Notes: a model not told the origin generated them from the letters alone. A stretch of 38,920 bases of DNA from Bacteroidota bacterium (GCA_021825585.1 JAKAGT010000014.1:87129-126048); one strand, 5' to 3'. Counted from the stretch's first letter, positions 33,331-38,920 are shown. Translations and numbers: made by a program.

Positions 33331-34067
33331 TGTGTTTGCTCCCTTCGTCAAGGATGTTAAGTGCAATTATTCCGGCTACGAAATAGGTTGTTCGCTTATG
33401 AATCTCGATGGTGTGGAACGACGGCATAGATACCCGTTCCCTGTTTGGTCAAAGCCCGACTGATGGAAGAAATTAAATACTATGGTCGTGAAGTGCAACC
33501 GGAAGCCAGCTGTACAAGCCAATTCGCGGATGCAGGTTCAACAGCTCCGACAATTTGCGTGCTGATAATCTGTTTACTGCTGAACGCACCCCACTTGACA
33601 TTAACGATTGAATCCCCTAAAATTTGGTGTGTTTCGCGCCAGATAATTGACCCCCATAGAACCACTACCCTGAACAGAGTTCGCAACTGAGAATACCCCT
33701 GGACATGGTGTCGGACTGATACTTTGGTCAAGTTGGAATGATTGTTGAGCGAGCCCATCTGGGCTGGAAGAAATCATCCTGGGAGGCTTGAGGTATTGAG
33801 TCGTCTGCATGAGATTCCGGACTTTCGCGGGAAACCGGCCAATGACTGACCAGGCTGAGAAAGCGAGCCCTTTTCCCGGGTTTCCGGTTACCAAAAGACA
33901 CAAACCCGAGTCAGCCCATCTTACGATATCTCCTGTTTCACAGCTGGAAGGCGTTAGCACAATAAGCGGGGAATTTATTTCATTCATCAACGTGAAGGGA
34001 ACCCGTGCCGTATTAATCTTACTGATACAGTTGGGGCAAACATACGGAAGCGGCGGGGAGGGAATAT
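33331..34067. other. Long intergenic region before the peptide cassette
   Basis: More than 700 bp without a convincing gene. It has a good promoter pair (33595-33623), open frames on both strands without family resemblance (33601-33990 minus; 33809-34159 plus), and a stretch (about 33615-33660) with CGCGCCAGATAATTGACCCC that reminds me of the ends of some IS elements, which I cannot confirm. A short frame, SRLHEIPDFRGK (about 33798-33850), ends in a stop and may be part of a lost gene. Confidence 0.4.
33595..33623 (+). promoter_or_regulatory. Candidate sigma-70-type promoter upstream of the peptide cassette
   Basis: TTGACA (33595-33600), a 17-bp spacer and TAAAAT (33618-33623) match the bacterial consensus well and face the radical SAM cassette. 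It is about 445 bp before the first candidate start (34068), so a long leader would be needed; a nearer promoter may exist. It could instead be a relic of an inserted element. Confidence 0.35.
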
Positions 34068-34133: not shown

Positions 34134-34203
34134 AGGCTTACATTTCTTTCGGCCGATGATAGTTCAATCAAAGAGACATCATCTTATTAGAAAGGATCCA
34201 AAA

Positions 34204-34425
34204 ATGGCAGTGAAACTTTCAAAAGCAGATATGTCAAGGTTCTCTAAGGATCCAAGGAAATTCCTCAGTGAACCGAAAAACGCCGCAAAACTTGCTGGCA
34301 TCACCGCTGCGGACAAGAACCGGCTGGCTGCCGAAATCTCCAAGGTCCAAAATGTCAGCAAGTCTGATATTCTGAAGCAACTTGACAAACTCGCTGTCGT
34401 GAGCGTTTCTGCAATCGATTGGTGA
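34204..34425 (+). CDS. Putative RiPP precursor peptide
   Basis: A 73-residue, cysteine-free peptide. Residues 1-62 are lysine- and aspartate-rich and helical, with FSKDPRKFLSEP, AAKLAGITAADKNRLAAEI and VSKSDILKQLDK; the DP...FL.EP...AAKLAGI pattern is like leader peptides of RiPP systems (distantly NHLP/Nif11-like). The last 11 residues, LAVVSVSAIDW, switch to hydrophobic and hydroxyl residues and end in Trp, which suits a short core peptide. I choose ATG 34204 because AAAGGATCC lies just before it; the frame is open from 34156. Two radical SAM genes follow at once, after a hairpin. That the peptide is modified by them is inferred from position. Confidence 0.65.
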   Translation: MAVKLSKADMSRFSKDPRKFLSEPKNAAKLAGITAADKNRLAAEISKVQNVSKSDILKQLDKLAVVSVSAIDW

Positions 34426-34438
34426 AGTGATAGATTCC

Positions 34439-34473
34439 TGGTAGCAGAGACCTACGCTCTGTTTCTGCTACCA
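34439..34473 (+). terminator. Hairpin between precursor and radical SAM genes (attenuator)
   Basis: A perfect 10-bp stem, TGGTAGCAGA (34439-34448) with TCTGCTACCA (34464-34473), and a 15-base loop lie 13 bp after the precursor stop and end 12 bp before the next ATG. Only a short GGGTTT follows. It would allow partial read-through or protect the precursor mRNA, so the peptide is made in excess over the enzymes, as is common in RiPP operons. Confidence 0.7.
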
Positions 34474-34485
34474 TGGGTTTAATGG

Positions 34486-35574
34486 ATGGTTACGAAAATG
34501 AATTCGGGCACGACCGTCGCAGATAAAATAGCCCTACGCATAAGGCATAATCAAAAGGGATATTTCAGCACACTGGGTATATCCGTAACGAACAGATGCA
34601 CGCTTAATTGTGCTCATTGCATTAGAGGGTCGACCGCGCACAGCTCGCAAATGGACACGAAGATCCTGTCCGATATCATCGACGGAATTCCATGCGTAAA
34701 AAGGTTGGTGAATCAAGTTGCAATTACGGGAGGAGAGCCTTTCCTATTCAAAGATGCAATCCATCGCATAACTGAAGCCGCAAGGAGTAGTGAGATCAAA
34801 ACGTCCGTTGTAACCAGCGCCTATTGGGCAAGGAGCCCTGCCGCTGCGAGAGAAACTGTGAGATCTTTCCCGTGGATAGACAAGTTTTCCATAAGCACCG
34901 ACCTTTACCATCAATCCAAAGTTCCATTAAGCACAATAAGACGGGCTTATGATGCCGCGAAGGCAGAGGGGAGACTAGTGAGAATTTGCGTAACGGTTAA
35001 TAGTAGGAACTCCGAAGAAGAAAAGGCGATGTTGGCGGGAATTTCTGAATTTGCGTATGATGCGGATATAAGAGTCCAGGAGCTTCTGCCCTGGGGCCGT
35101 GCCATCGACAAATATTCAGGACCAATTTCTTCGAGGGTTCCGCCGATTCCTTGTATCTCAACCGGTCCGTTCATAAGTGAGTTAGGAGTCATCTATCCTT
35201 GCTGCGGTCCACTGGTCACTGTTCCCTCAAGAACAGCCCTTCAGGAAACTCTCGATCATTCGCTATACAATTCGCTGAATAGAGTTAAGCTTAACCCGTT
35301 GTTCCACTTTCTGCGGATCTGGGGTTTCGGGCCCCTGTTCGAAAGACTTTCGATTGCAGGGTTCTCTTCTCTCTTGCCCAGGGAGCATTTGCCGGTGACG
35401 CCGTGCTCGACTTGTGCAGCCTTGTTCTCGGTCGACGAGATTAACGAATATCTGTTGGGCCTGTCAAAAGATTACGAATTCCTTCTGGAGGTTGTGGCTG
35501 GCAGCGTTCACATAATGGAAGACAATACACTTCTTGATGCTTATTTCCCGTGCGAAGAAAGGCTGGCAAAATAG
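34486..35574 (+). CDS. Radical SAM protein with auxiliary cysteine cluster (putative RiPP-modifying)
   Basis: A 362-residue radical SAM enzyme. The SAM-cleaving cluster is bound by CTLNCAHC (Cys38, Cys42, Cys45; CX3CX2C) and the SAM contact ITGGEPF follows at 80-86. Further cysteines, Cys223, Cys239, Cys240, Cys307 and Cys310, in IPCISTGPF, VIYPCCGPL and TPCSTCAAL, form a twitch/SPASM-like set that could hold one extra iron-sulfur cluster. Enzymes of this build modify peptides (crosslinks, epimers) or serve as maturases. It has no obvious peptide-recognition (RRE) domain. The start is uncertain: no good ribosome binding site precedes 34486, and ATG 34498 is an alternative. The next gene begins immediately after its TAG. 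Confidence 0.9.
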   Translation: MVTKMNSGTTVADKIALRIRHNQKGYFSTLGISVTNRCTLNCAHCIRGSTAHSSQMDTKILSDIIDGIPCVKRLVNQVAITGGEPFLFKDAIHRITEAARSSEIKTSVVTSAYWARSPAAARETVRSFPWIDKFSISTDLYHQSKVPLSTIRRAYDAAKAEGRLVRICVTVNSRNSEEEKAMLAGISEFAYDADIRVQELLPWGRAIDKYSGPISSRVPPIPCISTGPFISELGVIYPCCGPLVTVPSRTALQETLDHSLYNSLNRVKLNPLFHFLRIWGFGPLFERLSIAGFSSLLPREHLPVTPCSTCAALFSVDEINEYLLGLSKDYEFLLEVVAGSVHIMEDNTLLDAYFPCEERLAK

Positions 35575-37551
35575 ATGAAATCAACCTCCACAAGCGTCTC
35601 GAAGTCGGTTAGCATAGTCTCCATGCCGTGGGCGGATCCAACTCAGACCTCGATTCAACTCGGAATTTTAAAATCGGTTCTCACGGAGCTGAATCTCCCT
35701 TGCAGGTCCCTTCACTTCTACCTTGACTTCGCGGGCGTGCTGGGCCACGATTTGTACACTAGGCTCATAGCCAAACCGTCGCTTAACTTCTTCTGCGAGT
35801 GGCTCTTTTCAAAGGAAGCGTTCGGTGTCGATAATTCGAGAGAGTATATCAATTACCTTACCGAGCGAATGACTTCAGTGTACTCCAGGCTATATGATGG
35901 CACAGGCACCGAGGATGTGCTGACTTACGCCTTTGGTGCCGATAACGCATCCCAAATCGAACGGATCCAGAACCAGCTCGTTCCCGGCTACCTGCAAAAA
36001 TGCATGAGTGTGATCCTGGGGAATTGCGCGACAGATATCGTCGGGTTTTCATGTGTATTCAGCCAGATGGTTCCTTCGCTCGCGCTCGCGAAGCTCCTGA
36101 AAAGGGCGAGTCCATCGATGAAGATTGTACTTGGCGGCAATGCTGTGCAGGGCGAAATGGGGCAGGAATGTCTGAGGTCATTTCCCTGGGTCGACTATGT
36201 AGTTGACGGAGAGGGCGAAATATCGTTCCCCAGATTGATTCGCTACATCCGATCGCTTCATGGACAGGACGGCCGCGGAATACGATTTCCGGGAATTATT
36301 TATCGTGATCTTGACGGTAATGTTCGCCATTCCGGCATGCCGAGAACAGTGCCGAATCTAGACTCGGTCCCTATGCCCGATTACGACGATTTTTTTGAAC
36401 AGTCGGAGCAACTGCAGCAGCATACGTCGCACGATATGGTCGTTAGATTCGAGACGTCCAGAGGTTGTTGGTGGGGGGAGAAATCGCATTGTTCGTTTTG
36501 TGCGGTGAACGGACGCAATTTGCATTTCAGAGTCAAAAGTCCCGACCGCGTCGTTTACGAGACTTTCTATCTCAATACGAGATATCAGTCGCGGCATTTG
36601 TACGCAGTAGACTCAATCGCGGATATGGGGCTCTTATCGGAGGTGTTGCCGAAATTGGAGACCCTAGATGTCGACCTGGATCTTTTTTTCGAAATCAGGC
36701 CGAATACGAAGAAGGCCGAGCTGCTTCTTATGAGGGAGGCAGGCTTGCGTCTGCTCCAGCCCGGCATTGAGAGTTTTAGCTCGCCGGTTCTCAAAATCAT
36801 GCATAAGGGACTGCGCGGAATACAAAATATCCAGTTCCTTAAATGGTGCAGAGAGCTTAACCTTAAAGTAGGATACCACATACTGTGGGGATTCCCGGGT
36901 GAAAAGGCATCCTGGTATTCCGAGATGGAAAACTTGCTGCCCATAATTTATCATCTTGAGCCCCCGGATTTTCCGCCCCGACTCGTGAACTACCAACGTT
37001 ACAGTCCTCTTTCCGCAGAATATGGAAATGACAGACTGGTACCGCGCGCCGACTACGGTTTCATCTTCCCGGGAAATGTTGAACTGTCGAAGATTGCTTT
37101 CGCATTCGAGCATCCGCTCGAAGAGGAAATGCTCGAGCTAGGGTACATAAGGGGTCTGGCGCACAAAGTGAAGACGTGGCGTGAACTGTACTACAGCAAG
37201 GAAAGGCCCTACTTGTTTTACAGCAGAGGAATCGGCTTCGTCCAAATTTGGGATTCTCGCGATGGCATGATGAACCGAACGACATTATCCAGGGCATCTG
37301 CTAAGGTGTTCCTGTTTTGCGAGTCGATCAGAAACATTCAGCAAATATACCATCTCATTGAAGCGAGTTTCCCCGGCGAGTACAATGAAACCGAAAAGCT
37401 CGAACTCCTATCTCACCTGGAGTCCGAACATTTGCTTATCCGTGAAGGCAACTTATTCCTGACCCTGGCCATACCATTGAATTCAATCTATGACGAATTG
37501 CGCTACGTGTCGGAAATTGCATATGAAACTCAACGTAATACAAAAATCTAG
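35575..37551 (+). CDS. B12-binding radical SAM protein, RiPP maturation type
   Basis: A 658-residue enzyme. The N-terminal part (about 10-255) is a cobalamin-binding-like Rossmann domain with SVSIVSMPWADPTQTSIQLG, VGFSCVFSQMVPSLALAKLL, IVLGGNAVQGEMG and YVVDGEGEISFPRLI. The radical SAM domain has the unusual CX7CX2C motif CWWGEKSHCSFC (Cys298, Cys306, Cys309), then FCAVNGRNLHFRVKSPDRVV, LLQPGIESFSSPVLKIMHKG and YHILWGFPGE. These features are those of the RiPP maturation radical SAM protein 1 group (TIGR03975-like), whose members can C-methylate or otherwise rebuild unactivated carbons of peptide side chains. The C-terminal 150 residues are less conserved. ATG directly abuts the stop of the previous gene. 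Function on the upstream peptide is inferred. Confidence 0.9.
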   Translation: MKSTSTSVSKSVSIVSMPWADPTQTSIQLGILKSVLTELNLPCRSLHFYLDFAGVLGHDLYTRLIAKPSLNFFCEWLFSKEAFGVDNSREYINYLTERMTSVYSRLYDGTGTEDVLTYAFGADNASQIERIQNQLVPGYLQKCMSVILGNCATDIVGFSCVFSQMVPSLALAKLLKRASPSMKIVLGGNAVQGEMGQECLRSFPWVDYVVDGEGEISFPRLIRYIRSLHGQDGRGIRFPGIIYRDLDGNVRHSGMPRTVPNLDSVPMPDYDDFFEQSEQLQQHTSHDMVVRFETSRGCWWGEKSHCSFCAVNGRNLHFRVKSPDRVVYETFYLNTRYQSRHLYAVDSIADMGLLSEVLPKLETLDVDLDLFFEIRPNTKKAELLLMREAGLRLLQPGIESFSSPVLKIMHKGLRGIQNIQFLKWCRELNLKVGYHILWGFPGEKASWYSEMENLLPIIYHLEPPDFPPRLVNYQRYSPLSAEYGNDRLVPRADYGFIFPGNVELSKIAFAFEHPLEEEMLELGYIRGLAHKVKTWRELYYSKERPYLFYSRGIGFVQIWDSRDGMMNRTTLSRASAKVFLFCESIRNIQQIYHLIEASFPGEYNETEKLELLSHLESEHLLIREGNLFLTLAIPLNSIYDELRYVSEIAYETQRNTKI

Positions 37552-38104: not shown

Positions 38105-38656
38105 GTGAAATCAAAGCCGGGTATTGTGCTGTCGGAGCTCATACAAAGCAAGATAATTCTGATTCGTGGCGAGAAGGTAATGCTCGATGCAGATCTTGCG
38201 AAACTTTATGAGGTCTCCACGAAAAGACTGAACGAACAAGTTCGGCGTAATCCGGGGCGCTTCCCTTCGGATTTCATGTTCCAGTTAACGAAGGAGGAGT
38301 ATAGAATCTTGAGGTCGCAGTTTGCGACCTCAAGTTGGGGAGGCAGGAGGTATCTTCCGTATGCGTTCACGGAGCAGGGTGTTGCCATGCTATCATCCGT
38401 ATTGGACAGCGAACGGGCAATTCTCGTAAATGTTGAAATCATGCGGACATTCGTGAGGCTCAGGGAGATTCTCGCGACGCACAAGTATCTCGCGCGAAAG
38501 CTTGAAGAACTGGAGAAGAAATACGACGAACAGTTTGCGGTTGTGTTCGACGCGATCAGGGAACTCATGAAACCGCCGGAGCCACCTCCCAAGCGCCGGA
38601 TCGGGTTCGGCGTGGAGGAGAAAAGAGCACGATACTCTTCGGAACGCAGTTCGTGA
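38105..38656 (+). CDS. ORF6N domain-containing protein (phage-type DNA-binding)
   Basis: A 183-residue protein. Residues about 10-95 form an ORF6N domain, with [51 protein letters not shown] and the end [16 protein letters not shown] helical region with a coiled coil follows (about 115-150, [20 protein letters not shown]), then a basic, proline-rich tail. ORF6N proteins come from phages and mobile elements but are also common as chromosomal genes of Bacteroidota, with unknown roles. GTG 38105 follows CAGGAGGCAAT, which fixes the start. It stands alone. Confidence 0.9.
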
Positions 38657-38920
38657 ACCTTCCGCAGCCACGACTGGTGAGGCTGGCGAGAGTCCGCCCA
38701 TATATGGAACGGGCGGATTGGAGTGGCATAATGGGGAGGTATATACAGGGGGTGAACACAATCTGCTTGACAGCAGAGCTCAAAGCAGTTTGATCTAGGA
38801 GTCTGTCGGGGAACAAACATTTTTGTGTACAAAGTTTGTTGAGCCGTAATCATGATATTTTGTTAGTTTAGAGTTGGGGCATTTTTTGTCTCGCTAAGAT
38901 CCGAAGAGATGATTCCTCCA

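Follow-up and report, generated by a model that had tools for sequence, protein, structure and literature searches.

Proteusins such as polytheonamide attain D-residues and C-methylation through many enzymes and long precursors. The C-beta-methylase of L-Ile and L-Val in polytheonamide is PoyC, for which a CX7CX2C motif has been reported (review PMC11285071). In Bacillus subtilis, the enzyme EpeE (= YydG) uses Val and Ile as its substrates, and its Cys223 is proposed to return hydrogen during epimerization of Val36 and Ile44 (PMC8326336). Furthermore, the 57 nt intergenic region between epeX and epeE contains a terminator hairpin (PMC12871923). Here we describe a 38,920 nt stretch of DNA from a Bacteroidota bacterium (GCA_021825585.1, JAKAGT010000014.1:87129-126048; the window) that carries three genes on the plus strand. 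These encode a precursor peptide (34204-34425) and two radical S-adenosylmethionine (SAM) enzymes, rSAM1 (34486-35574) and rSAM2 (35575-37551). A preliminary description of this DNA had recognized a compact cassette of the kind that makes ribosomally synthesized and post-translationally modified peptides (RiPPs), comprising a peptide and two different radical SAM enzymes. Our analysis supports that description, and the locus is a real RiPP cassette. We think it fairly probable that it is a small operon in which the EpeE-like rSAM1 epimerizes, and the PoyC-like rSAM2 C-beta-methylates, a Val/Ile-rich tail of the precursor.

The 658-residue rSAM2 matches TIGR03975, the B12-binding radical SAM RiPP C-methyltransferases, over its full length (553 bits against a curated cut-off of 281.85; profile positions 1-606). 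This membership bears out the earlier placement of the second enzyme among the C-methylating radical SAM enzymes of RiPP maturation. Two other features noted at that time were a CX7CX2C motif and a B12-binding-like domain. The motif is present and comprises C298, C306 and C309, which are invariant in our alignment (A5); the B12-binding-like domain is indicated by 30.7 bits against Pfam, just below the cut-off of 32.1. The best fold matches of the rSAM2 model (pLDDT 84) are the cobalamin radical SAM enzymes TokK, CysS, OxsB and TsrM (Z 19-20), and identity to its relatives is 30-36% among the matches listed. A C-terminal winged-helix-like domain (about residues 547-638) may bind the leader. We considered a leader-binding RiPP recognition element at this terminus and set it aside, as the match is just winged-helix-like (Z 6.8) and too weak to claim.

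The 362-residue rSAM1 carries the CX3CX2C motif of the radical SAM cluster (C38/C42/C45) and eight further cysteines (70, 168, 223, 239, 240, 307, 310 and 356), rather than the five counted previously. Both the three motif cysteines and those of the auxiliary cluster (223, 239, 307 and 310) are invariant across the family alignment. A profile built from rSAM1 and 18 homologues matches EpeE across its length (1.9e-41), and the next solved structure follows at 2e-12. By Foldseek, the rSAM1 model (pLDDT 87) has the EpeE fold: EpeE chains are matched at E values of about 1e-15 to 1e-14 (best 1.6e-15; TM about 0.72-0.73/0.82), and the next structure at 6.5e-7. Moreover, C240 corresponds in the alignment to EpeE Cys223, which the C223A structures replace with Ala. 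This catalytic Cys is retained in rSAM1 and in all aligned EpeE-like homologues adjoining TIGR03975 genes, and it is absent from orphan Chlorobi-like homologues (L005-L011). We predict that rSAM1 is an EpeE-type peptide epimerase. An rSAM1-type query (P0001) found nothing among plasmids and viral contigs, and among 100 relatives and 395 genomes of the phylum it recovered only a different cassette in a congener (G006) and the Chlorobi-like orphans lacking the catalytic Cys. A Chlorobi-like genome (L131) has an 85-residue peptide (1591-1848) adjoining an EpeE-like enzyme (408-1505) whose catalytic Cys is lost (ACxGP, not PCC). A cyclopropyl-synthase reading of rSAM1 was dropped, as those synthases are SPASM enzymes acting on repeat peptides (PMC9062424) and TigE ranks just 34th among the fold matches.

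The pairing of these two enzymes is not confined to the window. A scan of genome contigs gave at least 80 loci with a TIGR03975 relative, and in six of these (L046, L050, L051, L055, L080 and L117) rSAM1-like genes flank that relative. A tree of 86 rows places rSAM2 in a nine-member set with SH-aLRT support of 99, together with five of the six loci, which lie in distant genomes and carry two or three rSAM1-like genes each. The three other members of the set are a locus whose contig begins at the gene (L119), one on a short contig (L105) and one that has no EpeE-like gene (L115). An rSAM1-like partner therefore accompanies five of the eight other set members versus 1/77 elsewhere among the matches listed (Fisher p 1e-5, relatedness ignored). 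These two enzyme types partner in related loci, and those loci also have a small peptide in first place. A single additional TIGR03975-like enzyme was found in 391 genomes of the class, with no EpeE-like partner on its contig. A search of open-licence papers turned up no account of an EpeE-type enzyme paired with a C-methyltransferase.

Four of the loci (L055:3289-10275, L046:3370-9216, L051:3157-9020 and L080:3077-9000) share an arrangement of their own, in which a conserved peptide of 102-136 residues (ELVQLRPG..V.D.Y.V.AVTDN....TS) precedes two or three genes for EpeE-like radical SAM enzymes, with the TIGR03975 gene last. These cassettes look like an undescribed RiPP family; that of L055 additionally has an aspartyl-protease-like protein, and its copy of the peptide lacks similarity to the precursor of the window. 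A separate Sphingomonas locus (L115:4116-8720) carries in one run an 86-residue peptide (TSVIAWDGYGVVIKG), a 500-residue protein, the TIGR03975 enzyme and, judged by eye, a TauD-like dioxygenase.

The window precursor has 73 residues, with a charged helical leader (about 1-62) and a tail (L63-W73, LAVVSVSAIDW) whose boundary we place provisionally. Its open reading frame stands out from chance because of a Shine-Dalgarno-like AAAGGA (AGAAAGGA; 34191-34196, plus strand) shortly 5′ of the ATG, the highest codon-usage score among the six frames (0.178 per codon versus 0.023 for the next) and a hairpin ahead of rSAM1. Cys, Tyr and His are absent from the peptide, and the sole Trp is the last residue; therefore, thioethers, tyrosine excision and the known aromatic-X-X cyclophanes are impossible in the tail. 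Sactionine, aromatic-cyclophane and tyrosine-excision readings were rejected on this basis, and the core has none of the cysteines of sactipeptides and ranthipeptides. For the enzyme other than the methyltransferase, epimerization or crosslinking had been suggested; the EpeE-type match favors the former, and the composition of the peptide speaks against the latter. The likely modification sites are V65, V66, V68 and I71, residue types on which EpeE and PoyC act. Searches of Pfam and NCBIfam with the precursor returned nothing above any cut-off, an NHLP/nitrile-hydratase-like leader included, and even at E 10 only an IniB N-terminal match (E 0.15). In its own genome, the precursor has no homologue besides itself (the second match, E 0.76, is noise).

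The 60 nt gap between the precursor and rSAM1 folds into a strong hairpin (34431-34481, plus strand; -25.2 kcal/mol, z -2.9), with only one of 200 shuffled sequences equally stable. This hairpin is probably an attenuator or mRNA stabilizer. A comparison with Rfam gave no match, and the corresponding gap of the G006 cassette holds no significant hairpin of this kind (z -0.8).

Several observations weigh against the proposal that an EpeE-like epimerase and a PoyC-like methyltransferase share this peptide. The best curated family for rSAM1, YydG (TIGR04078), is matched with only 67.9 bits against a cut-off of 300, and the protein is about 20% identical to EpeE. EpeE Asp210 (mutated in 8ai6) is replaced by Gly227; most TIGR03975-linked homologues likewise have Gly at this position. 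The clade association is drawn from a small number of loci that are themselves related, which Fisher's test does not take into account. Conservation of a precursor beside the same enzymes had been put forward as a check, and its outcome is divided: the two enzyme types are again paired at related C-methyltransferase loci, but none of the 395 phylum genomes has a precursor homologue (matches at E 0.02 sit within long frames), and conservation of the tail, or its identity as the core, is therefore unsupported. Finally, no protease, exporter, transporter or immunity gene lies beside the cassette in the window, where the contig stops 1369 bases downstream of rSAM2.

The low YydG score and the missing Asp210, together with the long branch of rSAM1 in its tree, would suit a RiPP cassette in which only rSAM2 acts as predicted and rSAM1 performs other radical chemistry at C-alpha or C-beta, such as crosslinking via Trp73, Asp72, Ser or Lys, or desaturation. 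Loss of the catalytic Cys from the Chlorobi orphans also indicates that the wider family is functionally mixed. However, rSAM1 keeps the catalytic Cys and every cluster Cys, and the precursor excludes thioethers and the known cyclophanes from its tail. We regard this alternative as unlikely, if the most serious of those considered.

It is less probable still that the enzymes act on another peptide or protein, encoded past the contig end, with the 73-residue peptide not serving as their substrate or having a carrier or regulatory role instead. The absence of homologues and of any leader family match would be expected in that case, and the contig does end 1.4 kb downstream, in a multi-copy repeat. 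Specifically, the last 127 bases or so (38794-38920, no strand assigned) recur at many other contig ends of the same genome, and the contig end is an assembly break at a repeated element. Because of this break, absence of an exporter or protease cannot be claimed; the genome as a whole has no peptidase-containing (C39) exporter. On the other side, the peptide is the first gene of the run, as small peptides are in related loci, and it has coding bias, a Shine-Dalgarno sequence and a hairpin ahead of the enzymes. Its leader also has weak similarity to that of the congener G006 precursor (shuffle p 0.008); against the precursors of L055, L115 and L131, leader similarity is not significant save for a marginal value with L115 (p 0.034). 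Between the cassette and the repeat, the window encodes an ORF6N-domain protein (38105-38656), partial DNA copies of which occur elsewhere in the genome. ORF6N-domain proteins are common on mobile DNA.

The chromosomal site of the cassette is shared with a congener. Upstream lies a divergent gene whose product, a beta-propeller protein, carries a type IX secretion signal; of 13 genomes in the genus, only G006 and G008 have close relatives of this gene. Together with its upstream region, the G006 gene matches its window counterpart at 75% identity, and a further promoter-like block of 106 bp (33593-33698, plus strand) that precedes the cassette is 76% identical; similarity stops beyond it. The block contains TTGACA-17-TAAAAT (33595-33623), with 11 of 12 consensus bases and directed toward the cassette. 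At the same site and in the same orientation, G006 has a different RiPP cassette (L133:4145-7219, contig 29) that encodes an 88-residue peptide whose leader is Os1348/NHLP-like (below cut-off, at E 3.6e-7), a 462-residue radical SAM enzyme and an EpeE-like enzyme keeping the catalytic CC. The two congeners bear different RiPP cassettes behind what seems to be one promoter; as an observation from two genomes, this is a lead rather than a rule. In G008 (contig 82), a radical SAM/SPASM enzyme resembling RiPP maturases (L154:206-1543; TIGR04463, 201 of 525 bits) lies near the beta-propeller gene, with a histidine-kinase-like gene, identified by eye, between them.

The window cassette itself is absent from the other sampled genomes of the genus and class. 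Were it a foreign island that is decaying or silent and at present makes no product, this would account for the lack of close relatives in the genus, for the position beside a repeat-broken contig end and for a lower GC content at third codon positions (0.51/0.51/0.59 versus 0.58-0.68 in most neighbours), but all three frames are intact with their catalytic residues kept, and we consider such an island highly improbable.

If the EpeE-like and PoyC-like assignments hold, the promoter-like block would drive the precursor, and the hairpin would probably cut read-through to rSAM1 and rSAM2, keeping substrate in excess of enzyme. The rSAM1 enzyme would take the C-alpha hydrogen from Val or Ile residues of the tail and return hydrogen on the opposite face via Cys240, leaving D-residues. 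Acting before or after this step, rSAM2 would use methylcobalamin to methylate unactivated beta carbons of Val or Ile. A protease encoded elsewhere would remove the leader. The likely product would then be the tail itself, LAVVSVSAIDW (about 11 residues), bearing one or more D-Val or D-Ile and C-methylated (tert-leucine-like) residues. By analogy with epipeptides and polytheonamides, the likeliest role of such a peptide, presumably after export, would be membrane activity. More tentatively, the locus might represent a minimal RiPP class, defined by an EpeE-type epimerase and a PoyC-type C-beta-methyltransferase acting on one tail of about 11 residues, placed at a fixed promoter site of the genus that exchanges whole cassettes, with congeners making different epimerized peptides.

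Such a three-gene system, whose epimerase is of an unrelated type, would offer a simple route to protease-resistant peptides containing D- and tert-leucine-like residues, and would mean that the same pair of chemistries has come together more than once. Partner clusters from other phyla point to a wider, undescribed family of pathways that combine EpeE-like enzymes with C-methyltransferases. Such clusters in Nitrospira, Acidobacteria, Deltaproteobacteria, Alphaproteobacteria and Peptococcaceae (L055, L051, L046, L080 and L050) resemble the window cassette in that EpeE-like genes adjoin a TIGR03975 gene of the same clade. They differ in the number of EpeE-like genes (two or three), in the different conserved peptide described above (four of the five) and, for L055, in the aspartyl-protease-like gene.

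Among described systems, the cassette resembles B. subtilis epeXEPAB (yydFGHIJ) in its small precursor, its hairpin, an EpeE-fold enzyme that has both cluster sites as well as the catalytic Cys, and its predicted Val/Ile targets. Unlike that operon, it has an added B12-dependent C-methyltransferase, an unrelated precursor and an rSAM1 that scores below the YydG cut-off and has no Asp210; neither the EpeP peptidase nor the EpeAB transporter is encoded beside it within the window, which ends 1369 bases downstream. The order of precursor, epimerase and TIGR03975 enzyme is also that of rhizobial Nif11 operons (e.g. S. meliloti pHRB800), but those have a PoyD-type epimerase and a Nif11 leader, whereas the window has an EpeE-type enzyme and a leader that matches no family above cut-off. 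With the proteusins (polytheonamide, poy; aeronamide, aer), the cassette would share epimerization and C-methylation by B12-dependent radical SAM enzymes with CX7CX2C motifs. In contrast to the window cassette, proteusins have long NHLP leaders and many more enzymes, and their PoyD-type epimerases are not detectably related to rSAM1 (PMC8326336), which shows no BLASTP similarity to the PoyD-type enzyme (TIGR04517) of S. meliloti (E 3.6). We predict that the cassette functions as a pared-down proteusin system whose epimerase is of the epipeptide type, yet its features do not qualify it for either class.

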